NCBI RefSeq assembly: GCF_002155905.1
Contig: NZ_MUMF01000247.1
Span: forward strand, 1-32,243
DNA: 32,243 nucleotides
Origin: Streptomyces tricolor
GTDB lineage: Bacteria > Actinomycetota > Actinomycetes > Streptomycetales > Streptomycetaceae
Direction: 5' to 3'
Of the stretch, positions 3,163-18,433 are shown one piece after another (position 1 is the first letter of the stretch; each line of letters starts with the position of its first letter). Under the pieces are notes generated by a model. That model was not told the origin of the DNA. It saw nothing but the letters and a program-made list of their open reading frames with translations, and did no database searches. Position numbers and translations under genes: made by a program.

Positions 3163-4341
3163 GTGTCGCTGCCACCCCTGGTCGAGCCGGCTTCCGAGCT
3201 CACCGTAGACGAGGTCCGCAGGTACTCCCGCCACCTGATCATCCCCGACGTGGGCATGGACGGGCAGAAGCGGCTGAAGAACGCCAAGGTGCTCTGTGTG
3301 GGCGCCGGGGGCCTGGGCTCGCCGGCGCTGATGTACCTGGCCGCGGCGGGCGTGGGCACGCTCGGCATCGTGGAGTTCGACGAGGTCGACGAGTCGAACC
3401 TGCAGCGCCAGATCATCCACAGCCAGTCGGACATCGGCCGCTCCAAGGCCGAGTCCGCGCGCGACAGCGTCAAGGGCATCAACCCGTACGTGAACGTGAT
3501 CCTTCACGAGGAGCGGCTGGAAGCCGACAACGTGATGGAGATCTTCAGCCAGTACGACCTGATCGTCGACGGCACCGACAACTTCGCGACCCGCTACCTG
3601 GTCAACGACGCGTGCGTGCTGCTGAACAAGCCGTACGTGTGGGGTTCGATCTACCGCTTCGACGGCCAGGCCTCGGTGTTCTGGTCCGAGCACGGCCCCT
3701 GCTACCGCTGCCTCTACCCGGAGCCCCCGCCCCCCGGCATGGTCCCCTCCTGCGCCGAGGGCGGCGTCCTGGGCGTGCTGTGCGCGTCCATCGGCTCCAT
3801 CCAGGTCAACGAGGCCATCAAGCTTCTCGCGGGCATCGGCGAGCCGCTGGTCGGCCGCCTGATGATCTACGACGCCCTGGAGATGCAGTACCGCCAGGTC
3901 AAGGTCCGCAAGGACCCCAACTGCGCGGTCTGCGGCGAGAACCCCACCGTCACCGAGCTGATCGACTACGAGGCCTTCTGCGGCGTCGTCTCCGAGGAGG
4001 CCCAGCAGGCCGCGGCCGGTTCGACGATCACTCCGAAGCAGCTCAAGGAGTGGATCGACGACGGCGAGAACCTCGAGATCATCGACGTCCGCGAGCCGAA
4101 CGAGTACGAGATCGTCTCCATCCCGGGTGCCAAGCTGATCCCGAAGAACGAGTTCCTCATGGGCACCGCCCTGGAGGGCCTCCCGCAGGACAAGAAGATC
4201 GTCCTGCATTGCAAGACGGGTGTCCGCAGTGCGGAAGTCCTCGCGGTCCTGAAGTCCGCGGGCTTCGCCGACGCGGTCCACGTCGGCGGCGGCGTGATCG
4301 GTTGGGTCAACCAGATCGAACCGCACAAGCCGGTCTACTGA
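3163..4341 (+). CDS. moeZ: MoeZ: adenylyltransferase/sulfurtransferase
   Basis: This 392-residue two-domain protein has an E1/ThiF-like adenylation domain in residues ~15-260 and a C-terminal rhodanese domain in ~285-390. The nucleotide-binding loop GAGGLG begins at residue 48. Zinc is held by CYRC (180, 183) and CAVC (254, 257). The rhodanese loop HCKTGVRS carries the sulfur-accepting Cys350. The family adenylates the C-terminal Gly-Gly of small sulfur carrier proteins (ThiS, MoaD, CysO types) and makes them thiocarboxylates for thiamine, molybdopterin, cysteine or specialised sulfur metabolites. The GTG at 3163 has GGAG at 3153-3156. The last codons, CCG GTC TAC TGA, lie inside the attachment core of the integrated element, which leaves the protein unbroken. 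Confidence 0.95.
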   Translation: MSLPPLVEPASELTVDEVRRYSRHLIIPDVGMDGQKRLKNAKVLCVGAGGLGSPALMYLAAAGVGTLGIVEFDEVDESNLQRQIIHSQSDIGRSKAESARDSVKGINPYVNVILHEERLEADNVMEIFSQYDLIVDGTDNFATRYLVNDACVLLNKPYVWGSIYRFDGQASVFWSEHGPCYRCLYPEPPPPGMVPSCAEGGVLGVLCASIGSIQVNEAIKLLAGIGEPLVGRLMIYDALEMQYRQVKVRKDPNCAVCGENPTVTELIDYEAFCGVVSEEAQQAAAGSTITPKQLKEWIDDGENLEIIDVREPNEYEIVSIPGAKLIPKNEFLMGTALEGLPQDKKIVLHCKTGVRSAEVLAVLKSAGFADAVHVGGGVIGWVNQIEPHKPVY

Positions 4342-4344
4342 TCA
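4329..4344. repeat. attL core
   Basis: GCCGGTCTACTGATCA covers the last codons and the stop of moeZ. It is identical to the copy at 18418-18433. Sequence before the core is unrelated between the two sites. Sequence after it is related but diverged, as expected when the element carries its own version of the target gene's end. Confidence 0.85.
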
Positions 4345-4346
4345 AC

Positions 4347-4411
4347 GGTTCCGTCGACCAGCGGGACCGAAGAAGCCCATGGCTCTGACCTCGTCGGATG
4401 CCGTGGGCTTC
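4347..4411 (+). terminator. moeZ terminator supplied by the element
   Basis: Two hairpins follow the moeZ stop. The first pairs GGTTCC (4347-4352) with GGGACC (4363-4368), using one G-T pair. The second has a 12-bp stem, GAAGCCCATGGC (4372-4383) with GCCGTGGGCTTC (4400-4411), and one T-G pair. The same two-hairpin layout follows the right att core with different bases. Confidence 0.7.
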
Positions 4412-4442
4412 TGTCGTTGTTGGTTGGCGTCGACTGACGCCG

Positions 4443-4461
4443 GACGGCCCAGCGACGGCCC
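4443..4461. promoter_or_regulatory. putative left arm-type integrase sites (two GACGGCCC boxes)
   Basis: GACGGCCC occurs at 4443-4450 and 4454-4461, exactly 11 bp apart. The same box at the same 11-bp step occurs near attR (18345 and 18356), with a further copy at 18327. Paired boxes on both arms at about one helical turn are what arm-type sites of tyrosine integrases look like. Binding is inferred. Confidence 0.5.
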
Positions 4462-4485
4462 GGGGTAGCACCTCTTCGCAAGATG

Positions 4486-4981: not shown

Positions 4982-5377
4982 GTGTTGTACGCGCACGAGG
5001 TGGTCCTCAACGAACTCGCACAGGGGCTCAGAACTGTGGCAGAGGGCGTCGAGTGGTTCGAGGGACTATCAGAGGGCGACCGACGCAAAGTCCTGCACGC
5101 CTTGGTGCTGTTCTGCGGGCAGGCCCGCGCCCGCGAAGAGGACGTACCGGAGAGCATCGCGCGTTCCGGCATCCGTCCTACTCACACGCCGGCGGTGATG
5201 CTCACGAAGTGGCGCTTCGGGATGGAAGCGCTTCCGGCCTACGAACTAACTAAATCCTTCCGCCTGCTCGTCGCCCTCTTCAGCATCGCTGACACCCGCA
5301 GGCGGGCGCTGCACTGCGCCGATGGATGTGGCCACGCGTGGCACAACCTGCCGGATCCGCCACAGGACGCAACCTGA
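4982..5377 (+). CDS. DUF5958-like protein
   Basis: This 131-residue protein begins VLYAHEVVLNELAQGLRTVA and contains GVEWFEGLSEGDRRKVLHAL, then TPAVMLTKW and a late DGCGHAWHN segment. It resembles a family of unknown function (DUF5958) that I associate with Streptomyces. The GTG at 4982 was chosen because GGTGGAAG lies just upstream at the right distance, and because the longer frame from 4733 is Cys-rich and looks non-coding. No membrane segment or catalytic motif is visible. It is a single-gene unit between the zinc-ribbon gene and decayed DNA. The biochemical role is not known. Confidence 0.7.
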   Translation: MLYAHEVVLNELAQGLRTVAEGVEWFEGLSEGDRRKVLHALVLFCGQARAREEDVPESIARSGIRPTHTPAVMLTKWRFGMEALPAYELTKSFRLLVALFSIADTRRRALHCADGCGHAWHNLPDPPQDAT

Positions 5378-5502
5378 AATGTCTTCTTGCCCTGGGTCTT
5401 GCCGGGGATCTTGGTGAGCTGGGTTTTTGCTGGTCAGGTGCGGTGGGCTCGTGCGCCTGGTGGTCGTCGTTGGTCGTCATTGGCCACTGTCGAGCGGCCT
5501 CG

Positions 5503-5521
5503 GACGGCTCAGAGACGGCCC
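5503..5521. repeat. extra GACGGC box pair, possible relic attachment arm
   Basis: GACGGCTC at 5503 and GACGGCCC at 5514 repeat the box pair of the left arm with the same 11-bp step. A GTCGTCGTTGGTCGT stretch shortly before (from 5463) recalls GTCGTTGTTGGTTGG before the left-arm pair (from 4413). The surrounding 5378-5526 carries no gene I can support. It may be the remains of an older left end of a related element. Confidence 0.4.
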
Positions 5522-5526
5522 AGCCA

Positions 5527-5810
5527 TCAAGGCTCCGACCCGGTCTCTACGTTCGCCAGCGCCGACGTATAGCGCTGCACAGCACTTCGAACCAACTCAC
5601 GCAGAGATACCGCAGCCTCCACAACCAGCCTCTTCGTCTCCTTAGGCGCTGAGTCCCCAGACCGTGTGCCACACGTGCGGGTCTCGGAGGCCGGCGAAGC
5701 GTGGGTGCCCGACTCCGGCCGCCACCGCCGTGTACGTGGCAGAAGCCGTTCCAGCCCGCAGGGTTCCGGCATGCTCGCCCTTGCCGTGTCACAGCAGCAC
5801 AACGCCCCAT
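5527..5810 (-). pseudogene. frameshifted gene with a CxAxTxxGxxCxN...CxxH motif
   Basis: The ATG at 5810 opens with MGRCAAVTRQGRACRNPAGW and continues to GFCHVHGGGG. This is a well-known small zinc-site pattern (Cys, Cys, Cys, His) of short actinobacterial and phage proteins. Just after this, near 5715-5730, the plausible coding frame changes. The other frame reads APKETKRLVVEAAVSLRELV and ends at 5527, and it has normal amino acid composition. One missing base would join the two into a protein of ~94 residues. The uncorrected first frame instead runs into Arg- and Trp-rich sequence ending at 5547. It is either a decayed gene or a sequencing error. The function is unknown. Confidence 0.5.
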
Positions 5811-5898: not shown

Positions 5899-6024
5899 CA
5901 GCTTGGGAAGCTGCGAGCACTAGCGGTCCATTCGACTGCTGACCTTGGCGAACAGTCTGAGAGCTACCTGTCGGCCTCGGCTACGTTCACCGTGGTTCCC
6001 CGTTGTTCCCCGCTCGATCTGGTG
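5899..6024. repeat. att-like repeat, copy A (hairpin plus GTTCCCC boxes)
   Basis: It begins with the perfect hairpin CAGCTTGGGAAGCTG (5899-5913). Ninety-two bases on comes CGTGGTTCCCCGTTG, with GTTCCCC boxes at 5995 and 6005, then CTCGATCTGGTG. Copy B at 7329-7456 has the same hairpin and boxes in the same order, 94 bases apart, while the DNA between has diverged. On the minus strand the hairpin reads AGCTTCCCAAGCT, like the anticodon arm of tRNA-Gly(CCC). Confidence 0.6.
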
Positions 6025-6033
6025 CGGCCGGGA

Positions 6034-6468
6034 TCATCCGCGTTGAAACCCGATGTCACCGAACACGCAGACGACGCGCCCATAGTCTTCGATCTGTTGC
6101 TGTTGTTCGTCGGGACGAGGTGCGTGCTCGTTGTCTCCACACCTGAGGACTGTTCCGTCGTCTCCCTCAAATGCGGAGACAACGCCTCCATGATGGCTAC
6201 AGGCTCCTGGGCGGCCGATGGAGTCTGACGGCCACCCGTCTGAGCACTCGTAGCCCTGATACGTCCAGCGAACTGGCGTGTGCGTGGCGGATGGAACTCC
6301 AGAGCTGACCGGCGGATCCTCGTCGTCATCGTTCCACCCACTGAGTTGGGCTGTGATCGGGAGGACGACGAAGATCCCTACGCCGATAAGGCCGGCCACG
6401 GAGTAGGCCACCACCCGAGCGACCCGCCATGCGCGGCTCTCGACGAGCCTTTGCAGGAGACTGCGCAC
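6034..6468 (-). CDS. membrane-anchored DUF3761-like protein
   Basis: This 144-residue protein has a cationic N-terminus and a single membrane segment at about residues 20-45 (VVAYSVAGLIGVGIFVVLP). An acidic linker (NDDDEDPP) follows, then a C-terminal domain with CSDGWPSDS and GACSHHGGV. The Cys-Asp-Gly ... Ala-Cys-Ser-His-His-Gly-Gly pattern is that of DUF3761, a small domain often exported or membrane-tethered, with two Cys that could bind metal or form a disulfide. The start used is the GTG at 6468, preceded by a weak AGAAG. It lies between the two att-like repeats and ends 10 bp from copy A, so it may have arrived with that older element. The function is unknown. Confidence 0.72.
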   Translation of the reverse strand: MRSLLQRLVESRAWRVARVVAYSVAGLIGVGIFVVLPITAQLSGWNDDDEDPPVSSGVPSATHTPVRWTYQGYECSDGWPSDSIGRPGACSHHGGVVSAFEGDDGTVLRCGDNEHAPRPDEQQQQIEDYGRVVCVFGDIGFQRG

Positions 6469-6730
6469 GGAAGACTTCTAGCAGAGCAAGCGGCTGCAGC
6501 GGGCCCATTCGCCGACGTTGGCGGCAGCTCCAGAGCGTCAAGCGGCGGACTACTGGTCGTCGTGTCTGGCATTCCGCAGACCCACCAACACGCTTTCCAA
6601 GTCTGTTGGTAGGGGGAAGGGGCGCAGCCGTGTCCGTTCACCTGCGTTCATGGGCGAACGAGGGCCGGGCTGGCCCCTGGCGATGGACCCGTCTGTACGG
6701 CGGTGAACGTAGCTGAATGAGACGGAAACT
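6469..6730. other. gene-poor stretch without supported coding
   Basis: Several frames are open, but none has convincing codon bias, a good ribosome site or a recognisable motif. A plus-strand frame ends ...RWTRLYGGERS at 6716, shortly before a strong hairpin, and may be the tail of a decayed gene. A 33-codon minus-strand ORF (6550-6651) is equally weak. Confidence 0.4.
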
Positions 6731-6762
6731 GAGACGGCCTGGCACGGGGGCCAGACCGTCTC
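6731..6762 (+). terminator. strong hairpin, probable terminator
   Basis: GAGACGG (6731-6737) pairs with CCGTCTC (6756-6762), and inside it CTGG pairs with CCAG around a G-rich loop. No T-run follows, which is normal for Streptomyces terminators. It would stop transcription between the decayed region and the small gene at 6918. Confidence 0.55.
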
Positions 6763-6917
6763 TACCTGGCGCGACCTTCTGATCCGTAGCGCTATATAGA
6801 TCCGTCGGAGACGGTCATACAGGCCACGCATCGGACCCACGGGGACGCTACGGAGGGGCGGTTGCTGTGGTTGCTGTATCCGGCTGCTGTACAGCACTCT
6901 CCTGGTGGGGGGACGGC

Positions 6918-7171
6918 ATGGAATGGGAACTACTCGAACAGCTCCTGGTCGGCAACGACGAGGCCTCCATGGCCGCTCTGGCTGCACTTCGCTGCTGCGG
7001 TTCTCACGTGGTCTGGGACAGGCCACCTCTTCTGAGCTGCTCGGCCGGCGTCAGCAGCCGGTTCGCGTGGGCATCAGAGCTGCCGAAGACTCCTGGCGGT
7101 TCATGTTGTTCCTTACGGGAGACGGCGGCACGCTGATCGCGTGCACCGCCGTGCGTCGGACCCACGCCTGA
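6918..7171 (+). pseudogene. small gene with a -1 frameshift, unknown function
   Basis: The ATG at 6918 follows a GGGGGGA ribosome site (6907-6913) and reads MEWELLEQLLVGNDEASMAA, ALAALRCCGSHVVWDR. Around 7020-7040 the plausible frame moves back one base and continues SELLGRRQQPVRVGIRAAED, SWRFMLFLTGDGGTLIACTA, VRRTHA, ending at 7171. The two parts fit one protein of ~84 residues with an amphipathic helical start and a beta-rich end. Because one frame supplies a good start and the other a good end, a single-base deletion is more likely than two separate genes. I do not recognise the family. Confidence 0.45.
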
Positions 7172-7188
7172 ACCTCAGCCGACGACAG

Positions 7189-7328
7189 TCAGCCACGGCG
7201 GCGGGTGCGCCGACCGATCAGGCGCGCGTATGCCTCGCTCCACCCGCCACCGGGCTCAGCCACGCTGCTGGCGCCGTCGACCAGAGCGGGCCCCGACAGC
7301 CGGCGCGCGACCACGGCGCCGCAGCCCT
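7189..7328 (-). pseudogene. C-terminal gene fragment cut at the att-like hairpin
   Basis: This minus-strand stretch has strong G/C third-position bias and reads CGAVVARRLSGPALVDGASS, VAEPGGGWSEAYARLIGRRT, RRRG, then TGA at 7189. The reading frame continues upstream only into the hairpin of repeat copy B (7329-7343) and the repeat itself, where the composition stops looking like protein. The simplest reading is the 3' end of a host or element gene joined to foreign DNA by recombination at the hairpin. No domain can be named from so short a piece. A short gene starting at an internal GTG is the alternative. Confidence 0.4.
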
Positions 7329-7456
7329 CAGCTTGGGAAGCTGCGATCATTTGGGGCTGGTTCGGGCGCCGACCTGATCGAACGGCAGAGACGCAGCCTT
7401 CGGAGGCTGGCCCTCTTTCACCCGTGGTTCCCTGCTGTTCCCCACTCGATCTGGTG
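7329..7456. repeat. att-like repeat, copy B (hairpin plus GTTCCCC boxes)
   Basis: The hairpin CAGCTTGGGAAGCTG is at 7329-7343. GTTCCCT and GTTCCCC boxes are at 7427 and 7437 (10-bp step), followed by CTCGATCTGGTG at 7445-7456. The layout matches copy A, 1430 bp to the left, in the same orientation. See the findings for its likely origin. Confidence 0.6.
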
Positions 7457-7621
7457 TGCTTGTGGTGTGGCTTGCCGATGGCCATCACTTGTTCCTGAAG
7501 GTCCTAAAGTGACCACTTCGGAGTGCACCTGGATCCGATGCCCGAGTAGTAACCTGTGGCCTGCGTAATCGACCTGATGACTCGTTAGGGCCTTTGGCCC
7601 GGTGAACGACTAGGGGGAAAC
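7457..7621 (+). promoter_or_regulatory. leader of the two-gene low-GC module
   Basis: This gene-free leader holds a short palindrome, AAGTGACCACTT (7507-7518), which could bind a dimeric regulator. It also holds a perfect hairpin, GGGCC-TTT-GGCCC (7588-7600), which ends 10 bases before the GGGGGA ribosome site (7611-7616) of the first gene. The hairpin could affect translation. No clear -35/-10 pair was identified. Confidence 0.3.
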
Positions 7622-8065
7622 GTGCTCACGGAGGCACTCGTGGCGATCGCAGCGGCGGGAGGTACCTCGGTGGTGCAGGCCGCTGGCACTGACGCATGGA
7701 CAAGCTTCAGGCATCGGCTTGGAACCATGATGGGGCGAGGCGACGAGCAGCGAACAGAAGCCGAAATCGAACGCCTCGAGCGGAGTGCCGCGACGATCGC
7801 CGGAACTGCCCCGGAGCAGCTGAACCGTGTCCGAGCCCTGCAAGAGGCTGTTTGGCAAGCACGTCTCGAAGACTGGTTGGAGTCTGTGAGTGCAGCGGAG
7901 CGGGAGAATGCGGCTGGCGAACTGAGCCGCATTATCTCCGCGTTCACGGAGAGCAGGGCGTCGGAAGGGTCGCGATACCAAGGCGATGTACGTCAGAGCG
8001 CGAAGGCCTCCGGTGAAGCCCGAATCTACCAGCTCGGTCAGGGTGAGATGAGGATTTCAGAGTAA
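7622..8065 (+). CDS. small helical protein, first gene of a putative conflict module
   Basis: The GTG at 7622 follows GGGGGA at ideal spacing. The 147-residue product has a hydrophobic N-terminus (LVAIAAAGGTSVVQAA, residues ~6-21), then a long charged helical region (MMGRGDEQRTEAEIERLERS onward). Near the C-terminus it ends with GEARIYQLGQGEMRISE. A closely similar motif, ESRVYQVAEGSMYI, opens the protein of the next gene, whose ATG overlaps this stop (TAATG). Small proteins of this general shape occur in Streptomyces beside larger effector or NTPase genes, which suggests an adaptor or sensor, but no named domain can be assigned. Its G+C is lower than the element's core genes, which suggests a separate origin. 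Confidence 0.75.
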   Translation: MLTEALVAIAAAGGTSVVQAAGTDAWTSFRHRLGTMMGRGDEQRTEAEIERLERSAATIAGTAPEQLNRVRALQEAVWQARLEDWLESVSAAERENAAGELSRIISAFTESRASEGSRYQGDVRQSAKASGEARIYQLGQGEMRISE

Positions 8066-9372
8066 TGGCCGCCGAGGATCCGCGTAACATTCGAGTTGAT
8101 ATCGAGGCCTTCGGGGAAAGCCGGGTGTATCAGGTCGCCGAGGGGAGCATGTATATCGGCGACGTTGATTCCACGGTTTCGACTGCGCGACGATTGGCTG
8201 CCATGCCCGTGCAGCAAGCCGTCGAAAGTATCCTCTCGATGGCGAGTTCCGAAAGAGCTGCCGTACTTGCCGAGATGATCCCGTCTGCTGCGGCTCCCAG
8301 GATTGCGGGGTTGCCGACGGTGGATGCCGTTGAGGTGCTCACGGGGATCGATGAACGGTTGGCGCTCGAGAGACTGCTGGCGATGAGCGCTAATATCGCT
8401 AGGAGACTCGTGCTTGCAATTGCAGAGCCGCAGCGTACCAATATTTTGGGTGGCCTGAATTTTGAACAGGCGCTTCGCATTGTCGGGGAAGTTGATGCGG
8501 AAAACGGTAAGTGGTCATTCGATCTTGACACTTTGAAAGAATTTTCGACCTGCTTGCCCACGCAGGTGATTGGCAAGATTCTTGACCATATTCCCCCTGA
8601 GGCTGCGGCACAGGTCGTCGACGTTGACCGTCCTGGAGGCCTGATCACTTGGTGCGCCATGGACTCTCAGGCCCGTATGTCCCTCGTCGCTTACATGCCA
8701 CGCGAGTGGACTGAGCTAGCGTTACATGCATTTTCGGAACCGGGTGATGCTCTTAAGCAATTGTGTGCATCCTATGGCACCAGCGTCCCGACGCCAGGTG
8801 ACATTGTAGGGCATATGCCCATTTCGCGCCTGGTGGACTTCATGTCTGAATCGGAGATGGGTCCCGGCGTCTATTGTTCTCTGGCACCTGAAGTTCGAGT
8901 GAACCTCATCGCGCACATGGATGTTCAAGGGCTGGCCAATATGTTTGCCCGGTTGGGAGATTGGCTAGCTGAGTGCGTGTGGACCATGATGATGATAGAT
9001 CAATCGCAGCCCTTTCGGCCGCCCCTGGCATGCCGATTTATTGCAGTGGCGTTGAGGGTTTCAGGGGTTGACTCTGATAGTGTCTTGAATCGCATTCCCC
9101 GAGAATATGCTGCGGCCTTGTGGGATTCAATCTGGTCCTATGATGCGGCTCAAGAAATTGGAGGACTGAAGGGAGAGGAGGCTTATCAGAGGTTCTCGGC
9201 AGTTCCAGATTCGTACAAGTCGCAGGTTGCGTGGCACCTCTCGGGAGAGGTGCGTGCCGCAATGATTGATTTCCTGGAATCCAAACGATGGAAAAACGCG
9301 ATGCGTGAACGCGATCTCAAAACATTGAGCGATGAGCATCGGTGGCACCGCTTCCCAGATCCCCTCCGGTGA
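8065..9372 (+). CDS. helical-repeat protein with MgtE_N-like repeats, second gene of the module
   Basis: This 435-residue protein has no membrane segment. It opens with the partner's motif (ESRVYQVAEGSMYI, residues ~18-31). From residue ~42 to ~150 come short helical units such as MPVQQAVESILSMASSERAA and IAGLPTVDAVEVLTGIDERL. Their spacing of Pro, Ala-Val and Leu recalls the superhelical N-terminal repeats of MgtE, though no transporter domain follows. Similar units recur later (MPREWTELALHAF, MPISRLVDFMSE), and the C-terminus is charged. No nuclease, NTPase or protease motif is visible. The ATG overlaps the previous stop by one base, so the pair is translationally coupled. Many codons end in A or T, unlike all neighbours, which indicates recent transfer. 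A scaffold or sensor role, possibly in defence, is inference. Confidence 0.75.
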   Translation: MAAEDPRNIRVDIEAFGESRVYQVAEGSMYIGDVDSTVSTARRLAAMPVQQAVESILSMASSERAAVLAEMIPSAAAPRIAGLPTVDAVEVLTGIDERLALERLLAMSANIARRLVLAIAEPQRTNILGGLNFEQALRIVGEVDAENGKWSFDLDTLKEFSTCLPTQVIGKILDHIPPEAAAQVVDVDRPGGLITWCAMDSQARMSLVAYMPREWTELALHAFSEPGDALKQLCASYGTSVPTPGDIVGHMPISRLVDFMSESEMGPGVYCSLAPEVRVNLIAHMDVQGLANMFARLGDWLAECVWTMMMIDQSQPFRPPLACRFIAVALRVSGVDSDSVLNRIPREYAAALWDSIWSYDAAQEIGGLKGEEAYQRFSAVPDSYKSQVAWHLSGEVRAAMIDFLESKRWKNAMRERDLKTLSDEHRWHRFPDPLR

Positions 9373-9752
9373 GCAGCTAATGGCTACTGCGTAGGCGAGA
9401 TAGGTAACAAGGTCGACGTAGCGGCTATGGGGTGGCGCTGCTGTGGTGCGAGTGGTCATGGCCCCGTAAGCTTCCGGTGCGTCGGGCAGTCTGTGGACCT
9501 GCCCGGTAAAGCATGACGTTGGGGCCATGATTTGCGAGGCTCGCGCCAAAGTGGCTGCCTAAAGCCGTGGAGCCGACCGCCCCAGCCACGACGTACCCCT
9601 TCTCTGACGGCAAGCGGCTGATTGCTGTGCGCGCGGCACGGGCGCCGGCCGGGCTGGAGCGGGGCGGAGACAGGAGCGCAGGCCCGGCCGGGGGCCGGGC
9701 CGCGCGCGGTGAGCGGAGCGAGCCGCCTTGAACCAGTAGAGAAAGTTGTAAC
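9373..9752. other. 380-bp non-coding stretch with a large palindrome
   Basis: No supported gene is present; open frames here lack start signals and read as low-complexity Arg/Ala/Pro. The main structure is GGCCCGGCC-GGG-GGCCGGGCC at 9681-9701, a perfect 9-bp stem. It probably ends transcription from the module on the left, from the minus-strand gene on the right, or both. Confidence 0.45.
9681..9701. terminator. perfect 9-bp-stem hairpin
   Basis: GGCCCGGCC (9681-9689) pairs fully with GGCCGGGCC (9693-9701) over a three-base loop. It lies between convergent units (9372 ending rightward, 9753 ending leftward), so a bidirectional terminator is the simplest role. Confidence 0.5.
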
Positions 9753-12392: not shown

Positions 12393-12749
12393 TTGCGCAC
12401 CATCCGCGTGGAGACCTCCGGCGCCACGATCCTGCTCACCGAGGCGCCTGAGCCCAAGGTCCGCGACCGGCAGACCGGCGAGATCGCCAAGGACGCCAAC
12501 AGCGGTGAGGCGCTGATGACCATCGGCGTCGTCTACATCGAGGACGGCGAGTCGTCGCTCATCAAGGTCACCGTCCCGGAGGGCGGCATCTCCGAGGGGC
12601 TGACCCTGGGGGCGCCGGTCTCGCTGCCGGGCCTCGTCGCCCGGCCGTGGGAGTCCGTCTTCAACGGCCAGCAGCGCCACGGCATCGCCTACCGCGCTGC
12701 CGCCGTCACTCCGGCCGCATTCCCGGCCACGACCGGGGCCGCCGCCTGA
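12393..12749 (+). CDS. SCO3933-family regulatory protein
   Basis: This 118-residue protein begins MRTIRVETSGATILLTEAPE and contains PKVRDRQTGEIAKDANSGEA and an FNGQQRHGIAYRA segment near the C-terminus. It matches the SCO3933-type family carried by AICEs directly before the FtsK-like gene. The start is TTG at 12393, six bases after AGGAG; a rare start codon behind an operator suggests tightly limited expression. The protein is beta-rich and soluble with no DNA-binding motif that I can see, so its regulatory label rests on family naming. Its stop overlaps the next start (TGATG). It occupies the place of a small accessory or pra-like gene in the transfer operon. Confidence 0.85.
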   Translation: MRTIRVETSGATILLTEAPEPKVRDRQTGEIAKDANSGEALMTIGVVYIEDGESSLIKVTVPEGGISEGLTLGAPVSLPGLVARPWESVFNGQQRHGIAYRAAAVTPAAFPATTGAAA

Positions 12750-14125
12750 TGTCCGACCTGACGACGCTTTTCGAAGTGGGTGGTCCTGTCGCCGCACTCG
12801 GCGGCGGGGCCGCCTACGCCCGGGCCAAGCACCCGGCGGCGTACTGGTCCACGGTCGGCCTGCCGGTGTCCACCGTCCGGCTGCTCAGCTCGTACGGCTC
12901 GGTCATGGAGGCATGCGGCCTGACGGTGGCACCCTCCCGGCTGCGGGTGCTCGCCGTGAAGGCCATGACACAGCGCGAGATACGGCCCGTACCGCCGCGC
13001 CGGGGCCTCATCCGGCCCACCACGACCGGGCTGCGGATACGCCTCCGCCTGGCGCCGGGCCAGGAACCCGCCGACGTCGCCGCCTCCGCCGAACGGCTGC
13101 GGCACGCCTGGGGCGTTCACGCCGTGTACGTCACGACCGTCAAGCCGGGGGTCGTCGAGCTGCGGCTCGTCGGCTATGACGTCTTACGGCGGGTGTGTAT
13201 GCCGCGCAAGGTCGCAGGCAGCTTCCTCAAGGTGCCGGTCGCACTGCGAGAGGACGCCATGCCGTTCATACGCGACTACCGCACCATTCCCCACCAGCTC
13301 ACCCTAGGCGCGACCCTGTCCGGCAAGTCCATGTACCTGCGCCACCTCATCGCCGGACTCGCCCCTCAGCCGGTCGCCCTCGTCGGGATCGACTGCAAGC
13401 GGGGCGTCGAGCTGGCTCCCTTCGCACCCCGGCTCTCCGCACTCGCCACCGACCCGGAACAGGCGGCTGAACTCCTGCCCGTACTGGTCAAGGAAATGGA
13501 GGACCGATACGACCTGATCAAGGTCCGGCAGGGCATCGCCCCCGGCACCCCGGACGAGGAAATCACCTCTGACATCTGGGGCCTGCCCGAGCACGAACGC
13601 CCGGTGCCGGTAGTGCTGTTCGTGGACGAGGTGGCCGAACTCTTCATGATCGCCACCAGGAAGGACGAGGAACGGCGCGACGAGATGGTCACGCAGCTCA
13701 TCCGCCTCGCCCAGCTCGGCCGCGCCGCCGGCATGTACCTGGAGGTGTGCGGGCAGCGCTTCGGTGCCGAACTCGGCAAGGGCGCCACCATGCTCCGCGC
13801 CCAGCTCACCGGCCGCGTCTGCCACCGGGTCAACGACGAAGCCTCAGCCAAGATGGCACTCGGCGACATCGCCTCCGAAGCGGTCATGGCCGCCTGCTCC
13901 ATCGCCCCCGAACGGCCCGGCCTGGCCGTGGCCGGTGACACCTCCGGCGGCTGGTCCCGCATCCGCACGCCGTACCTCTCCCTGGGCGATGCCGCCGAGA
14001 CCTGCCGCAGGTCGGCGAACCTCGTGCCCGACCTCACTGCGCTGAAGCCCTTCCGCCCTGACGTGCCTGAGCGTCCGGTCGAGAGCGCGACCCCGGTCGT
14101 CCTGCCTCACCCGGTAGCCGACTGA
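12749..14125 (+). CDS. FtsK/SpoIIIE-type DNA translocase (TraSA-like)
   Basis: This 458-residue protein has a Walker A motif, LGATLSGKS, at residues ~186-194 and a Walker B motif, VVLFVDEVAEL, at ~288-298. They lie inside an FtsK-like motor domain (~175-430). The N-terminus has weakly hydrophobic stretches rather than clear membrane helices. In Streptomyces elements this single protein pumps double-stranded DNA between mycelial compartments and replaces a whole type IV system. The ATG at 12749 overlaps the preceding stop by one base; the longer frame from 12647 is discarded because it covers the SCO3933-family gene. It is the key conjugation gene of the element and reads intact. Confidence 0.92.
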   Translation: MSDLTTLFEVGGPVAALGGGAAYARAKHPAAYWSTVGLPVSTVRLLSSYGSVMEACGLTVAPSRLRVLAVKAMTQREIRPVPPRRGLIRPTTTGLRIRLRLAPGQEPADVAASAERLRHAWGVHAVYVTTVKPGVVELRLVGYDVLRRVCMPRKVAGSFLKVPVALREDAMPFIRDYRTIPHQLTLGATLSGKSMYLRHLIAGLAPQPVALVGIDCKRGVELAPFAPRLSALATDPEQAAELLPVLVKEMEDRYDLIKVRQGIAPGTPDEEITSDIWGLPEHERPVPVVLFVDEVAELFMIATRKDEERRDEMVTQLIRLAQLGRAAGMYLEVCGQRFGAELGKGATMLRAQLTGRVCHRVNDEASAKMALGDIASEAVMAACSIAPERPGLAVAGDTSGGWSRIRTPYLSLGDAAETCRRSANLVPDLTALKPFRPDVPERPVESATPVVLPHPVAD

Positions 14126-14159
14126 CCTTCCCCCGCCCGACTCCGGAAGGAGCCGCATC

Positions 14160-14780
14160 ATGCGCGCCCACCTGGCCCGCGTCGACGCGGTGCTCGTTCA
14201 AGCGCTCATCGCTGCCGCGCTGTCCTTCACCCACCTTCACGACGTCGCCGTGGCGGCCGGACAGGACGGATGGAAGGCGTGGGCCTACCCCGTCTCCGTC
14301 GACCTGTTGCTCGTCGCCGCCTGGCGTCGACTGCGCTCGGGTCATGGCAAAGCGGCGGCCTGGTGCTGGTTCGTCATCGCCCTCGCCGCCTCCCTCGGTG
14401 CCAACGTCGCCACCGCCGGCCTCCTCGACCTCGGGAACGTCCCGGCCTGGCTGCGCATCCTCGTCGCGGGCTGGCCCGCTGTCGCCTTCCTAGGCGGAAC
14501 CCTCCTCGCGCACAGCACGCCCAAGACGGACCCCGCACCGGAGGTCATCAAGGACCAGGAGGACGAGTCCGAAGCCGCACCCGAACCACCCGCGCAACCC
14601 GTCATCGAGGCACCACCGCAGCACCCGCCCGTACCCGTCCCCTCCGCCCTGGTCGCCCACGCCCGCAAGGTCGCCGCCGAGCATCACGCCCGTACCGGCG
14701 CCCCGATCGACACCCCAACCCTCCGCGCCCGCCTTGGCGTCCCGGTTCCGATGGCCGAGGCCATTGCCGCCCACCTCTGA
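14160..14780 (+). CDS. DUF2637 membrane protein (Spd-like)
   Basis: This 206-residue protein has about four membrane segments in its first 120 residues (VLVQALIAAALSFTHL, YPVSVDLLLVAAW, WCWFVIALAASLGANVAT, WLRILVAGWPAVAFLGGTLL). An acidic, Pro-rich linker follows (~125-165), then a small helical C-terminal domain with RARLGVPVPMAEAIAAHL that could contact DNA. DUF2637 proteins are standard AICE members and are thought to help spread of the element within the recipient mycelium. GGAAGGAG stands before the ATG at 14160, 34 bp after the translocase gene. Function is assigned from family and position. Confidence 0.85.
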   Translation: MRAHLARVDAVLVQALIAAALSFTHLHDVAVAAGQDGWKAWAYPVSVDLLLVAAWRRLRSGHGKAAAWCWFVIALAASLGANVATAGLLDLGNVPAWLRILVAGWPAVAFLGGTLLAHSTPKTDPAPEVIKDQEDESEAAPEPPAQPVIEAPPQHPPVPVPSALVAHARKVAAEHHARTGAPIDTPTLRARLGVPVPMAEAIAAHL

Positions 14781-14791
14781 GAGGGGACCGC

Positions 14792-14983
14792 GTGTCTGCC
14801 AACCGCAGCTTCCGCAACGTCACCCGCATCGGCCCCGTCCAGGTCGGCACCTCCTACGACGGCCGGGGCCGTGAGAAGCACACCGCGGCCTGCACTGCCC
14901 CGCGCTGCGGCTTCTCCGCCGACTACGACAGCCGCGCTGCCGCCGAACTGGCCGCCCGCACCCACCGCTGCCCCGTCCGCTGA
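14792..14983 (+). CDS. small mobile-element transfer protein
   Basis: This 63-residue protein reads MSANRSFRNVTRIGPVQVGT, SYDGRGREKHTAACTAPRCG, FSADYDSRAAAELAARTHRC, PVR. It is basic and has Cys at CTAPRC and a further HRC, a possible metal site. Proteins of this size and pattern occur at this place in AICEs, between the DUF2637 gene and small Spd genes, and are annotated as mobile-element transfer proteins. The GTG at 14792 follows GAGAGGGGA and starts 11 bp after the previous stop. The mechanism is unknown. Confidence 0.8.
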   Translation: MSANRSFRNVTRIGPVQVGTSYDGRGREKHTAACTAPRCGFSADYDSRAAAELAARTHRCPVR

Positions 14984-14999
14984 AAGGACCCGGACAACC

Positions 15000-15194
15000 G
15001 TGACCGTCAGCCTGCCGCTCGTGGTCGTCCTCGGCTTCTTCGCCTGGGGAGCGATCAAGTTCCTCGGCGTCCGCACCTGGATCGTCGTCCTGATCGCCCT
15101 GTTCGGCTTCTGGCTCTCGCACACCTTCCTCGCCCCCGCCATCGAGTCCGGCACGCGCTCCGGCGTGAGCGTCGTAAACAGCTTACATGACTAG
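15000..15194 (+). CDS. small two-helix membrane protein
   Basis: This 64-residue protein consists almost entirely of two membrane segments (LPLVVVLGFFAWGAIKFLG and TWIVVLIALFGFWLSHTFLA) with a short polar tail ending VVNSLHD. The GTG at 15000 follows AAAGGACC. Such tiny membrane proteins are common in the spread region of Streptomyces elements and are assumed to act with the translocase at the membrane. Operator O5 covers its last codons and the start of the next leader. Confidence 0.75.
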   Translation: MTVSLPLVVVLGFFAWGAIKFLGVRTWIVVLIALFGFWLSHTFLAPAIESGTRSGVSVVNSLHD

Positions 15195-15200
15195 ACGAGT
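15185..15200. promoter_or_regulatory. GntR operator candidate O5, before the SpdD-like gene
   Basis: ACATGA-CTAG-ACGAGT keeps the right arm and spacer type of the other sites, with a weak left arm. It is followed by AGATAAGGAAAGG and the GTG at 15220. This AGATA(A)GG tail also follows O4, which suggests both were copied together with their ribosome sites. Confidence 0.5.
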
Positions 15201-15219
15201 AGATAAGGAAAGGTCAACC

Positions 15220-15465
15220 GTGTCCCTGCCCAAGTACCCGGACAACCCCACCCCGCCGTCCGCCCACACCCACATCCCGACCGGCCCGGCACCGGTCCGA
15301 CGCGGCCTGCCGTCGCTCCCCATCGATCAGAAGACGGTCGTGGCGGTGCTCGTCGGTGGAGTCGTCCTCACCGCGCTTCTGGCGGCCGTCGCCATCACAG
15401 CGATTTCCGTGGCCGTCGCCGCCGTCGTCTTGCGCTCCCTGGTCCGCGACCAGCACCGGCGCTGA
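15220..15465 (+). CDS. SpdD-like small membrane protein
   Basis: This 81-residue protein has a Pro-rich N-terminus (SLPKYPDNPTPPSAHTHIPT), one long hydrophobic segment (VVAVLVGGVVLTALLAAVAI, ~42-70) and a basic end (RSLVRDQHRR). Size, layout and position before the replication gene fit SpdD of AICEs. The GTG at 15220 was chosen because AAGGAAAGG precedes it; an ATG at 15187 overlaps the previous gene and would add operator-derived residues. A strong hairpin follows the gene. Confidence 0.78.
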   Translation: MSLPKYPDNPTPPSAHTHIPTGPAPVRRGLPSLPIDQKTVVAVLVGGVVLTALLAAVAITAISVAVAAVVLRSLVRDQHRR

Positions 15466-15478
15466 CCGGCCGGCCTGA

Positions 15479-15521
15479 CCCGGGGCGGCCACGACACGGC
15501 CAAGCATCCGGCCGCCCCGGG
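15479..15521 (+). terminator. 12-bp-stem hairpin between spdD and repSA
   Basis: CCCGGGGCGGCC (15479-15490) pairs perfectly with GGCCGCCCCGGG (15510-15521) over a 19-base loop. It lies 39 bp before the replication gene, so it either separates transfer from replication transcription or is part of a replication origin. The terminator is the simpler reading. Confidence 0.6.
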
Positions 15522-15560
15522 CCCCTCCCTCCTGACCGATCCAGCCAGAAGGAGACCGCC

Positions 15561-16907
15561 ATCTTTACCCGCACCACCCCGCCCCCGCTCCCGGAACTCG
15601 CAAGGCTGGCCGAACACGGCACCCTGCCCGGTATCCTCCGGCAGCTCACCGGGCTCGGCGGCTGCACCCACCCGATCCGCCTCGACGGCCACCGCACCGA
15701 GTACGGCGTCGACACCACCACCGGTGAGATCGGCCGCGTCCTCCACCACCTCGACTCGGCCACTCTCCCGGCCGGCCAACTCCTCGTGCGCTGCAACAAC
15801 CGCCGCACCACCCGCTGCCCGGCCTGCGCAGAGGTCTACCGCCGCGACACCTTCCATCTGATCACCGCCGGACTGCGTGGTGGCAAGGGCACCCCGGAAC
15901 ACGTCGCCGCCCATCCCCGCGTCTTCGCCACGTTCACCGCCCCCGGCTTCGGCCCGGTGCACAACCGCCGCACCGACGGCCGCCCCTGTCGCTGCGGCAC
16001 CCACCACGACCAGGACGACGACACCCTTGGCACCCCGCTGAACCCGGACAGCTACGACTACGAAACGGCCGTCCTCTGGAACGCCCACGCCGGACAGCTC
16101 TGGCGGCGCTTCTCGACCTACCTCCGCCGAGAGGTCGCCAAGCGTGCGGGCCTGTCACAGCGCCGGTTCCGCGACCACGCCCGCGTCTCCTTCGCCAAGG
16201 TCGCCGAGTACCAGAAGCGCGGAGCCGTCCACTTCCACGCCGTGATCCGCCTCGACGGCCCCGGCGGCGGAGACACCCCGCCCCCGCCCTGGGCAACAGC
16301 CGAACTCCTCACCGACGCCATCCGGGCCGCCACCACCAAGGTCCGCGTCGACGGCCCGGTCATCGACGGCCGCGCCCACACCTTCACCTTCGGCCGCCAA
16401 CTCGACGTCCGCGCGATCCGCTCCGCCGACTTCAATGACGACCAGGAGCTGACCGAGCGGGCCGTAGCGGCGTACATCGCCAAGTACGCCACCAAGGGCG
16501 CCGAGACCGCCACGGGCGCCCTTGACCGCCCACTTAAGTTCGCCGCCGAACTCGCCCAACTCGACATCAGCGACCACGCCCGCCGCCTCATCCGAACCGC
16601 CTGGAGCCTCGGCGCACGCAAAGACTTGGAACACCTCCGCCTGCGCGCCTGGGCACACATGCTCGGCTTCTGCGGCCACTTCTCCACCAAGTCCCGCCGC
16701 TACTCCACCACCCTCGGCGCCCTCCGCGACGCCCGCGCCGAATGGCGCCGCGCACAAGCGACAGCACCCAACGGCCCGGAGACCGAGACGACGTACGTCC
16801 TCGCCCACTGGGTGTTTGCCGCCACCGGCCTGTCCGACACCGAAGTCTGGCTTGCCGCATCCCTCGAACCCGCCCCCGGAACGGAAGGAGAGCCAACCCG
16901 TGGATAA
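15561..16907 (+). CDS. repSA: RepSA-type replication initiator with an apparent ATC start
   Basis: This 448-residue protein has the two signatures of an HUH rolling-circle initiator: HFH at residues 224-226 (AVHFHAVIRL) and the Tyr-rich catalytic helix YIAKY at 305-309 (AAYIAKYATKGAE). There are Cys pairs (CPAC, CRCG) in the first 150 residues. The coding sequence clearly begins before the first standard start codon (GTG 15786, residue 76). Residues 1-75 read IFTRTTPPPLPELARLAEHG, TLPGILRQLTGLGGC and on, with strong codon bias. No ATG, GTG or TTG exists in frame between an upstream stop and 15786, but AGAAGGAG (15547-15554) lies six bases before ATC 15561. ATC is therefore the best start, or ATG has mutated. 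The end overlaps the excisionase gene by 8 bp. Confidence 0.85.
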   Translation: MFTRTTPPPLPELARLAEHGTLPGILRQLTGLGGCTHPIRLDGHRTEYGVDTTTGEIGRVLHHLDSATLPAGQLLVRCNNRRTTRCPACAEVYRRDTFHLITAGLRGGKGTPEHVAAHPRVFATFTAPGFGPVHNRRTDGRPCRCGTHHDQDDDTLGTPLNPDSYDYETAVLWNAHAGQLWRRFSTYLRREVAKRAGLSQRRFRDHARVSFAKVAEYQKRGAVHFHAVIRLDGPGGGDTPPPPWATAELLTDAIRAATTKVRVDGPVIDGRAHTFTFGRQLDVRAIRSADFNDDQELTERAVAAYIAKYATKGAETATGALDRPLKFAAELAQLDISDHARRLIRTAWSLGARKDLEHLRLRAWAHMLGFCGHFSTKSRRYSTTLGALRDARAEWRRAQATAPNGPETETTYVLAHWVFAATGLSDTEVWLAASLEPAPGTEGEPTRG

Positions 16908-17139
16908 CCGGCGCCTCGCCGTTGCGGACGTGTCGACCGCACGGCGGGTTCTGCCCGAGCGATACCTCACGCCGGAAGACCTGGTGACGATGTTCGACCT
17001 TCCCAGCGTCGAGACCGTCTACCAGTGGCGGCGCAAGCGCACCGGTCCTCGCGGATTCCGAGTCGGTCGGCACCTTCGGTTCGACCCGGTGGATGTGCGG
17101 GCGTGGGTGGACTCCCAGCGCGAAGGGGTCGCCGCCTGA
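16900..17139 (+). CDS. xis: excisionase / helix-turn-helix protein
   Basis: This 79-residue protein contains RYLTPEDLVTMFDLPSVETV, YQWRRKRTGPRGFRVGRHLR and FDPVDVRAWVDSQ. It is a MerR-like winged helix of the excisionase type, with the usual Tyr-Gln-Trp recognition helix and the FDPxDVxAW ending. It bends DNA at the att sites and tips the integrase toward excision. The GTG at 16900 has GAAGGAG upstream and overlaps the end of the replication gene; its stop overlaps the integrase ATG (TGATG). The rep-xis-int order is that of pSAM2-type elements. Confidence 0.88.
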   Translation: MDNRRLAVADVSTARRVLPERYLTPEDLVTMFDLPSVETVYQWRRKRTGPRGFRVGRHLRFDPVDVRAWVDSQREGVAA

Positions 17140-18374
17140 TGGCTGGGCACATTCAAGACCGCTGGTACAAGACTGAGGTCGGGTCGGACGGCAAGACACG
17201 CAAGGTCAGGACCGACCGGTACGGCACGGGGATGCGCTACCGCGCCCGCTTCATCGGCCCGGACGGCACCGAGAAGTCCAAGAGCTTCCCCGACCGTCAG
17301 AAGCGGCTCGCCGAGCAGTGGCTCTCGCAGGTCGAGGCGGATATGGCACGCGGGCAGTACATCGATCCGCAGGCCGGCCGCCTCACTGTGAGGCAGCACG
17401 CCGAACGGTGGCTGGCGTCGCTCACCATGGACCCCGGCACCTTCGTGGGCACCGAGCAGCGCATCCGCCTACACGTACTGCCCTACCTGGGCAGCTGCAC
17501 ACTGGGCTCACTCCGGCCGACGCACATCCGCGAGTGGCTGCGGAAGCTGCATGACGGGGGAGTGGCACCCGCCTATCAGCGGGTGATCTTCGCCAATCTC
17601 TCCACCATGCTGACAGCGGCTGTGGACGACCGTCTGATCCCTGAAAACCCCTGCCGGTCGTCATCTGTCCGCGCGCCGAAGCTCGACCCTCGTCGGGTCG
17701 TTCCTTGGCAGCGCGAGCGTGTCCTCGCGGTCCGCTCGGCGCTGTCCGCGCAGTACCGGCCCATGGTGGACCTCGCCGGTGGATGCGGCTTACGCCAGGG
17801 TGAGGTCCTGGGCCTGGCGGTGGAAGATGTGGACTTCAGCGACGGCGTGATTCACGTCGTGCGGCAGGTCAAGCTGATCCGCAACCGGCCGGTGTTCGCG
17901 CCGCCCAAGGGGGCCAAGGAGCGGACCGTCCCGCTGCCCGAGAGCGTCGCTCAATCGATCGAGGAGCACATCAGCCAGTATCCGCCGGCCTCCGTGACGC
18001 TGCCTTGGCGCGCTGTCGATGGAGCACCGGTGACTGCTTCTCTGATCTTCCACAGGGACCAGGGCCGCCCGATCAACCGCAACGACTTCAACCGCGGGGC
18101 CTGGCGTCCAGCCCTCGACGCAGCGGGCGTCCCTCTCGGCCGGGCGAGCGGAATGCACGCGCTGAGGCACTTCTATGCCTCCGTCCTCCTAGATGCGGGC
18201 GAGAGCATCAAGGCTCTCTCCGAGTACCTGGGCCACCATGACCCGGGCTTCACCCTCCGGACGTACACCCACCTGATGCCCAGCAGCGAGAAGCGGACCC
18301 GGGAGGCGGTGAACCGAGCCTTCGCGGACGGCCCGGACACGGATGACGGCCCCACGACGGCCCAGGGGGAGTGA
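17139..18374 (+). CDS. int: tyrosine site-specific integrase
   Basis: This 411-residue phage-type integrase has an N-terminal arm-binding part (~1-80), a SAM-like core-binding domain (~82-180) and a catalytic domain (~190-385). The catalytic residues are visible: Arg219 in GLRQGE, His340 and Arg343 in HALRH, His366 in LGHHD and the nucleophile Tyr376 in RTYTHL. The ATG at 17139 overlaps the excisionase stop, and the stop is 43 bp before the attR core, the usual arrangement. It is inferred to catalyse insertion at the moeZ 3' end. Its last codons contain three GACGGCCC boxes that match boxes beside attL, so the end of the gene doubles as the right att arm. Confidence 0.95.
   Translation: MAGHIQDRWYKTEVGSDGKTRKVRTDRYGTGMRYRARFIGPDGTEKSKSFPDRQKRLAEQWLSQVEADMARGQYIDPQAGRLTVRQHAERWLASLTMDPGTFVGTEQRIRLHVLPYLGSCTLGSLRPTHIREWLRKLHDGGVAPAYQRVIFANLSTMLTAAVDDRLIPENPCRSSSVRAPKLDPRRVVPWQRERVLAVRSALSAQYRPMVDLAGGCGLRQGEVLGLAVEDVDFSDGVIHVVRQVKLIRNRPVFAPPKGAKERTVPLPESVAQSIEEHISQYPPASVTLPWRAVDGAPVTASLIFHRDQGRPINRNDFNRGAWRPALDAAGVPLGRASGMHALRHFYASVLLDAGESIKALSEYLGHHDPGFTLRTYTHLMPSSEKRTREAVNRAFADGPDTDDGPTTAQGE
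18327..18363. promoter_or_regulatory. putative right arm-type integrase sites (three GACGGCCC boxes)
   Basis: GACGGCCC occurs at 18327, 18345 and 18356, all inside the last codons of int. The last two are 11 bp apart, as in the left pair. They end 54 bp before the attR core. Confidence 0.5.
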
Positions 18375-18417: not shown

Positions 18418-18433
18418 GCCGGTCTACTGATCA
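18418..18433. repeat. attR core
   Basis: GCCGGTCTACTGATCA is identical to 4329-4344. It still contains the final Pro-Val-Tyr-stop codons of moeZ, here without the rest of the gene. The original chromosomal sequence downstream of moeZ resumes after it. Confidence 0.85.

Follow-up and report, generated by a model that had tools for sequence, protein, structure and literature searches.

Stacked putative att modules of several tRNA specificities, two of them of the tRNA-Gly(CCC) type, in the cargo end of a moeZ-targeting AICE of Streptomyces tricolor

Introduction

Integrons hold arrays of short units that are bounded by recombination sites and reassorted there. The locus described herein is similar in that it appears to be an array of short units bounded by, and reassorted at, recombination sites. 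However, its sites are AICE-type modules of a core and an arm, with tRNA-anticodon cores and several specificities, and are not attC. The two integrases P0001 and P0002 scored 24 and 64.2 bits, respectively, against the integron integrase model TIGR02249, far short of its cut-off of 265.

Closer counterparts have been described among AICEs. Accretion at one tRNA gene (tRNA-Arg) produced tandem elements and remnants between direct repeats, and cis-mobilisation was proposed (PMC9513070). The present locus also shows several elements or remnants in tandem, bounded by direct repeats. However, the accretion described in the relevant passages of that paper involves one specificity and one chromosomal site, whereas several specificities are found here, inside elements and plasmids and away from the tRNA gene. 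Integrase switching was reported for the AICE family AICE03, members of which target tRNA-Val or rlmN (PMC9513070). The present locus likewise combines a similar backbone with another integrase and another target; in contrast, earlier att modules left inside the element go unmentioned in the passages of PMC9513070 on switching. Fean6303 has attL and attL2 and is excised from either (PMC3218068). It resembles our locus in its two left sites, but both are of a single specificity in the account of these sites given there. AICE accretion and integrase switching are already published, and we found no description of att stacks with several specificities in open-licence PMC papers.

We analyzed a 32,243-nucleotide stretch of S. 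tricolor (contig NZ_MUMF01000247.1; hereafter, the window), in which an earlier note had pointed to two diverged att-like repeats.

Results

The window element has a translocase, a RepSA-type initiator, an integrase, and flanking direct repeats, and is an AICE of the pSAM2-like kind (Table 1). Matches to FtsK_SpoIIIE (E 1.5e-33), RepSA (E 3.7e-138), and Phage_integrase were all above the Pfam cut-offs. With the NCBIfam models, RepSA reached 493 bits (below the cut-off of 700) and TraB 28.6 (below the cut-off of 800). The gene at 3163-4341 encodes MoeZ (NCBIfam, above cut-off). The backbone proteins of the window were 82-97% identical to those of the tRNA-Gly loci L089, L068, L069, and L074, which served as queries; family names were checked on the window proteins, and the proteins of other loci were assigned through similarity to those. 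In contrast, the window integrase shared only 30% identity with the Gly-type integrase P0001. This combination is consistent with a history of integrase switching and backbone deletion. An empty moeZ counterpart was sought among close relatives of the window integrase. The sole other moeZ-core element among them was L127 (integrase, 86%), the cargo region of which was mostly unalignable to the window, with one short aligned stretch (window 9420-9715); therefore, no empty site was found. Of modules, L127 had a degenerate arm-like stretch and nothing more.

Table 1. Positions of features in the window (+, forward strand; -, reverse strand)
Feature	Position	Strand	Description
Left AICE end	4329..4468	+	moeZ core GCCGGTCTACTGATCA and apparent distal arm with GACGGCCC-type direct repeats
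Possible relic att arm	5375..5530	+	TGGTCGTC repeats, GGACGGCTCAGAGACGGCCCAG; tentative; similar stretches in other loci
Putative Gly(CCC)-type att module A1	5899..6045	+	core CAGCTTGGGAAGCTG (5899-5913) and arm with two TTCCCC boxes
Cargo ORF, unit 1	6034..6468	-	144 aa; weak DUF3761 similarity, 18.4 bits (Pfam cut-off 29)
Putative Ser(GGA)-type att module	6585..6737	+	core CCAACACGCTTTCCAA and arm GTTCACCTGCGTTCATG ... TGAGACGGAAACTGAGACGG
Putative Arg(ACG)-type att module	6776..6896	+	core CTTCTGATCCGTAG and arm GGTTGCTGTGGTTGCTGTA...CTGCTGTACAGCA
Second small cargo gene	6918..7171	+	apparent frameshift against flank relative in L085, reading to same end; by eye
LM, conserved left-flank module	7151..7328	+	oriented repeat of ~150-185 bp, CCTCAGCCGACGACAGTCAGCCACGACGG...
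Putative Gly(CCC)-type att module A2	7329..7475	+	core CAGCTTGGGAAGCTG and arm
Cargo ORFs past A2	7622..9372	+	147 aa without Pfam match; 435 aa with MgtE_N match
AICE backbone	12393..16907	+	SCO3933-family protein, FtsK/SpoIIIE translocase, DUF2637 protein, RepSA initiator
Tyrosine integrase of moeZ element	17025..18374	+	Phage_integrase, E 4e-23 (Pfam)
Right copy of moeZ core repeat	18418..18433	+	exact 16-bp direct repeat with 4329

The earlier note had described both repeats as beginning with a match to the anticodon arm of tRNA-Gly(CCC), which we confirmed at both positions. The 8.83-Mb genome has three copies of the 15-bp core CAGCTTGGGAAGCTG: at 5899, at 7329, and in the anticodon arm of the intact host tRNA-Gly(CCC) gene (anticodon called by ARAGORN). 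When aligned, the two modules of approximately 145 bp agree at 103 of 142 positions (73%). The pair of boxes that it had noted further on, approximately 10 bp apart, is also present in both copies; the TTCCC boxes lie 94 and 104 bases from the start of CTTGGG in A1 and 96 and 106 bases in A2, in which the first box reads GTTCCCT. CTCGATCTGGTG is common to both, as described. The Gly arm contains direct repeats approximately one helical turn apart (TTCCCC twice and TGGTGCG twice), which is the usual appearance of integrase arm sites. A profile trained without A1, with A2 in the training set, detected A1 at E = 9e-29, and A1 and A2 shared 70-81% identity with the ends of L057, L089, L095, and L098. 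Gly arms of types A, B/C, and D have one core in common.

The same module lies at the ends of tRNA-Gly(CCC) elements. In the plasmid locus L007, it is fused to the 3' half of tRNA-Gly(CCC). L089 and L095 show the whole element arrangement within one stretch, in the order tRNA 3' half, core and arm, cargo, SCO3933-like protein, FtsK-type protein, DUF2637 protein, RepSA, tyrosine integrase, and intact tRNA-Gly (the tRNA in L089 was checked with ARAGORN). The ends of L057, L082, L093, and L098 were the same once these loci were extended. A Gly core with the tRNA 3' half follows 10 of the 11 Gly-type integrase genes (at least 75% identity to P0001), belonging to an intact tRNA gene in seven cases and, in three, to the module of an element that follows in tandem; the distance from integrase to core was 76-126 bp, and 1020 bp in L095. 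No Gly core was present in the 281 bp to the right of the Gly-type integrase of L069. This integrase family has no LGH motif and was missed by a tyrosine-integrase regular expression requiring LGH; its members were then found through similarity and profile searches.

The core is identical to part of a tRNA gene, and the same core and arm occur at element ends, as expected of att sites. Based on these comparisons, the two repeats are predicted to be distal att halves (a core and putative integrase arm sites) of AICEs whose integration site is the anticodon arm of tRNA-Gly(CCC), as the earlier note had proposed. It is extremely improbable that they represent a generic intergenic repeat or a regulatory element with no connection to integrases. 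Many copies have no adjoining integrase gene, which would suit such a repeat; however, this explanation is contradicted by the fusion of 34 of 118 type-A sites to tRNA-Gly halves, the position at element ends, the identity of the core with an anticodon arm, and the nearly uniform orientation of the other core types. As a separate observation, mechanical ORFs in L074 and L071 continue across the tRNA-Gly 3' half, which they read as '...GDENRTRALSLGS'; such readings could give rise to spurious protein predictions.

The core with the box pair was found in 55 of 392 Streptomyces genomes, at 68 places, and the backward-read pattern in none of the same 392 genomes. Sixty of the 68 places were fetched as loci; the window was among the remaining eight. 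A scan of GTDB species genomes yielded 117 stretches, and all 80 of those listed were from Streptomyces; 28 of the 80 duplicated earlier loci and were dropped, leaving 52 loci for replication. Plasmid records gave seven Streptomyces matches, four of which covered at least 80% of the query, and phage records queried with the L007 copy gave no module match. Three exact core matches in viral contigs were set aside, their flanks being, by eye, unlike the module.

Elements with other integrases also carry the Gly module. A full-size integrase from a different family (24-48% identity to P0001) lay to the right of the type-A module in 19 loci, and in none of these did the module have a tRNA half; the same was true of L009, which has only an integrase fragment. 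The elements' own direct repeats (16-74 bp) were found in nine of the 19 and always lay outside the Gly module, by 442-4335 bp. Their targets were moeZ (the window), Ser-GGA (L059 and L079), Arg-ACG (L043), Arg-TCT (L084), and Arg-CCT (L047, L049, L053, and L100). The anticodon was confirmed by ARAGORN in L059, L079, L043, L084, and L049; L053 and L100 were named from the identical repeat, L047 was assigned without a whole-locus ARAGORN scan, and no tRNA was found in L112, an extension of L100. A core first labelled 'Leu' was relabelled tRNA-Arg(CCT) after an ARAGORN call in L117, an extension of L049. The other 10 elements gave no convincing repeat of their own: eight had none, L051 a distant 16-mer only, and L048 a self-match only. 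The claim that both Gly copies lie inside a moeZ-targeting element was, thus, borne out, with the moeZ direct repeats outside them and a different integrase.

The earlier note had further suggested that the host tRNA-Gly(CCC) gene be checked for an element with such arms. None was found within the 17.9 kb examined, which held no further core and no arm. A Gly-type integrase was sought in the window genome and none was close (best, 31%); therefore, the Gly modules of the window are probably dormant. No integrase was found in the segment between the two Gly cores (5899-7328), which would fit an integrase-free segment between matching att sites, as in cis-mobilisable or accreted arrays.

The two Gly modules are not alone. 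The cores of the window follow one another in one orientation, in the order moeZ (4329), Gly (5899), Ser (6585), Arg (6776), and Gly (7329). The Ser(GGA) module shared 76 and 73% identity with the left ends of the tRNA-Ser(GGA) AICEs L059 and L079, respectively, and the Arg(ACG) module 73% with the left end of the tRNA-Arg(ACG) AICE L043. Comparison with these ends indicates that the Gly modules are two putative layers of a stack in the cargo end of the moeZ AICE, together with Ser(GGA) and Arg(ACG) modules. The A1 unit was also present in L055, L059, L064, L148, and, in a shorter form, L202, and every DNA match started at the core. The suggestion that the left part of the element may be a graveyard of earlier insertions holds in an enlarged form, with Ser(GGA) and Arg(ACG) modules between the Gly copies; "graveyard" may be too passive a term, as the cargo flanking the modules has been reassorted between elements.

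Two further stretches of the window are described here. The TGGTCGTC and GACGGCYCAG direct repeats at 5375-5530 resemble the moeZ arm at 4329-4468. LM was also found in L052, L055, L069, L074, and others. The matches listed have the same orientation with a single exception, and LM often follows directly on an Arg(CCT) or Gly B/C arm and directly precedes a Gly core. The idea that LM is the left half of attP was dropped, this repeat being present elsewhere too.

Similar stacks were present among loci that were selected for a Gly module and oriented by it, to which the following counts refer. At least one core of another type (with at most one mismatch) occurred in 30 of the 60 fetched loci (one in 17, two in 11, and three in two), a count that takes in genuine tRNA genes and the ends of the elements themselves. 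Among 131 loci, at least one module was recognized in 118 and at least two in 65. The gaps between neighboring modules (n=106) had a median of 935 bp, with quartiles of 658 and 1651, and L070 had nine modules in 15 kb, one with a degenerate arm. The units listed hold one to several ORFs by a crude GC criterion. Across the 131 loci, forward and reverse cores numbered 38 and 0 for Ser, 48 and 0 for Arg(CCT), 15 and 2 for Arg(ACG), and 8 and 0 for Arg(TCT), with genuine tRNA genes and the ends of the elements themselves again counted. In nine loci chosen for integrases 63-82% similar to that of the window, a scan that left out L136 (6 kb, contig end) found none of the cores at up to two mismatches. 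Stacks are not universal because these nine loci are without cores and L127 has the degenerate arm-like stretch only.

We then compared the cargo on the two sides of the modules. Among 6441 pairs of type-A sites, which are not independent of one another, cargo was shared on the right only in 85, on the left only in 42, and on both sides in none; by BLAST, the numbers were 53 (left), 90 (right), and 0 (both). When the right flank was counted from +170 in 114 type-A sites (four of the 118 had no flanks and were dropped), they were 53, 88, and 0 pairs, respectively. Since no type-A pair shared both flanks, the cargo has been reassorted at the modules. At control points 500-1500 bp to the left of the site, the ratio of both to either was 0.16-0.75 (BLAST). 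To the right, it was 0.04 at +300, 0.18 at +500, and 0.00-0.07 from +650; these low values, with many units ending from +650, agree with short units and do not discriminate. Left, right, and both counts were 16, 13, and 0 for Ser modules and 10, 6, and 0 for Gly B/C modules, and shared flanks of Arg-type modules were too few to judge reassortment. In the 52 other loci, one unit was found with several different left neighbors.

These results bear on the view that the modules are fossil ends only, in which integrase switches add a new integrase-core-arm block, the old arms are inert debris, and cassette-like exchange is absent. Switching between integrases in one AICE family is published (PMC9513070), the own repeat lay outside the Gly module in every case in which it was found, and the copies in the window have diverged in a genome without a close cognate integrase. 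However, full reassortment of both flanks and varied left neighbors require exchange at the modules, beyond burial, and L052 has three tandem units at tRNA-Gly with no detected integrase. We regard this view as rather unlikely.

The positions of the breakpoints point to the module itself. Of 133 alignment ends, 56 fell at the core, versus 0-9% at shifted points other than +145; the arm end (+145) was also a breakpoint peak (58/107, and 22/55 in the 52 other loci). In those 52 loci, 19 of 56 alignments broke at the core versus 8 of 333 at control points. Since left-shared similarity ends at the core, while right-shared similarity starts at the core or, in other pairs, nearer the arm boxes, the alignments show exchange at the module, from which we infer exchange by an integrase at the core. 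The spacer from +20 to +80 was often near background even when the right cargo was 95% alike. In one genome, a Gly-type unit was present twice (L092 and L093; 94% over 1108 bp), behind a tRNA-Gly half in one case and unrelated sequence in the other.

Part of the breakpoint signal could stem from homologous recombination in the arms because these are conserved. It is unlikely that integrase-free homologous recombination between the conserved arms of approximately 130 bp accounts for the shuffling of cargo. The arms are generally approximately 75% alike, and some pairs are similar only from near the arm boxes, in line with such recombination. However, homologous recombination works poorly on stretches of 130 bp with 75% identity. 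Moreover, left-shared similarity ends at the core even before unlike arms: L055 and L091 share 94% identity across 994 bp, a match that stops 11 bases after CTTGGG begins, and the arms beyond are of different types.

Discussion

We consider it probable that distal att halves were stacked inside elements with other integrases, that the flanking cargo was accreted or swapped by integrases at matching cores, and that deletion of the partner backbone followed. An incoming AICE, or an excised unit, would meet a resident AICE with a matching core, and the integrase would join both there. Similar tra-rep-int blocks would recombine homologously, and the partner's block would be lost, leaving the core, the arm, and a little cargo. 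Integrase switching would set a new end outside the older end, and rounds with different integrases would build up the stack. Two matching cores would let units be cut out or swapped.

A further-reaching proposal is that Streptomyces AICEs run a poly-specific, integron-like form of gene capture. Short units of cargo, each with an att module at its head for one of several integrases that target tRNAs or other genes, would be inserted, excised, and swapped by whichever integrase is present, and the stack would be a living cassette array and not debris. We put this forward only tentatively. Ten hand-picked cargo proteins were submitted to PADLOC. Anti-phage models matched five of these, with clear matches for two, an AbiU-like protein in L010 and a ThsB-like one in L052; the two window cargo proteins among those ten had no match. 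L010, a 21-kb linear plasmid from Streptomyces sp. NBC_01635, has an AIPR/AbiU-like gene and a DUF4265 gene lying between two Gly modules. The tandem units at tRNA-Gly(CCC) in L052 carry a TIR-CHAT-TPR protein and the ThsB-like TIR protein.

Stacking of distal att halves, with the exchange of cargo at matching cores, would explain the exchange of cargo among AICEs. It would also provide a sequence-based means of splitting AICE cargo into units and of reading past specificities, and would supply natural substrates for the action of one element's integrase on the sites of another.
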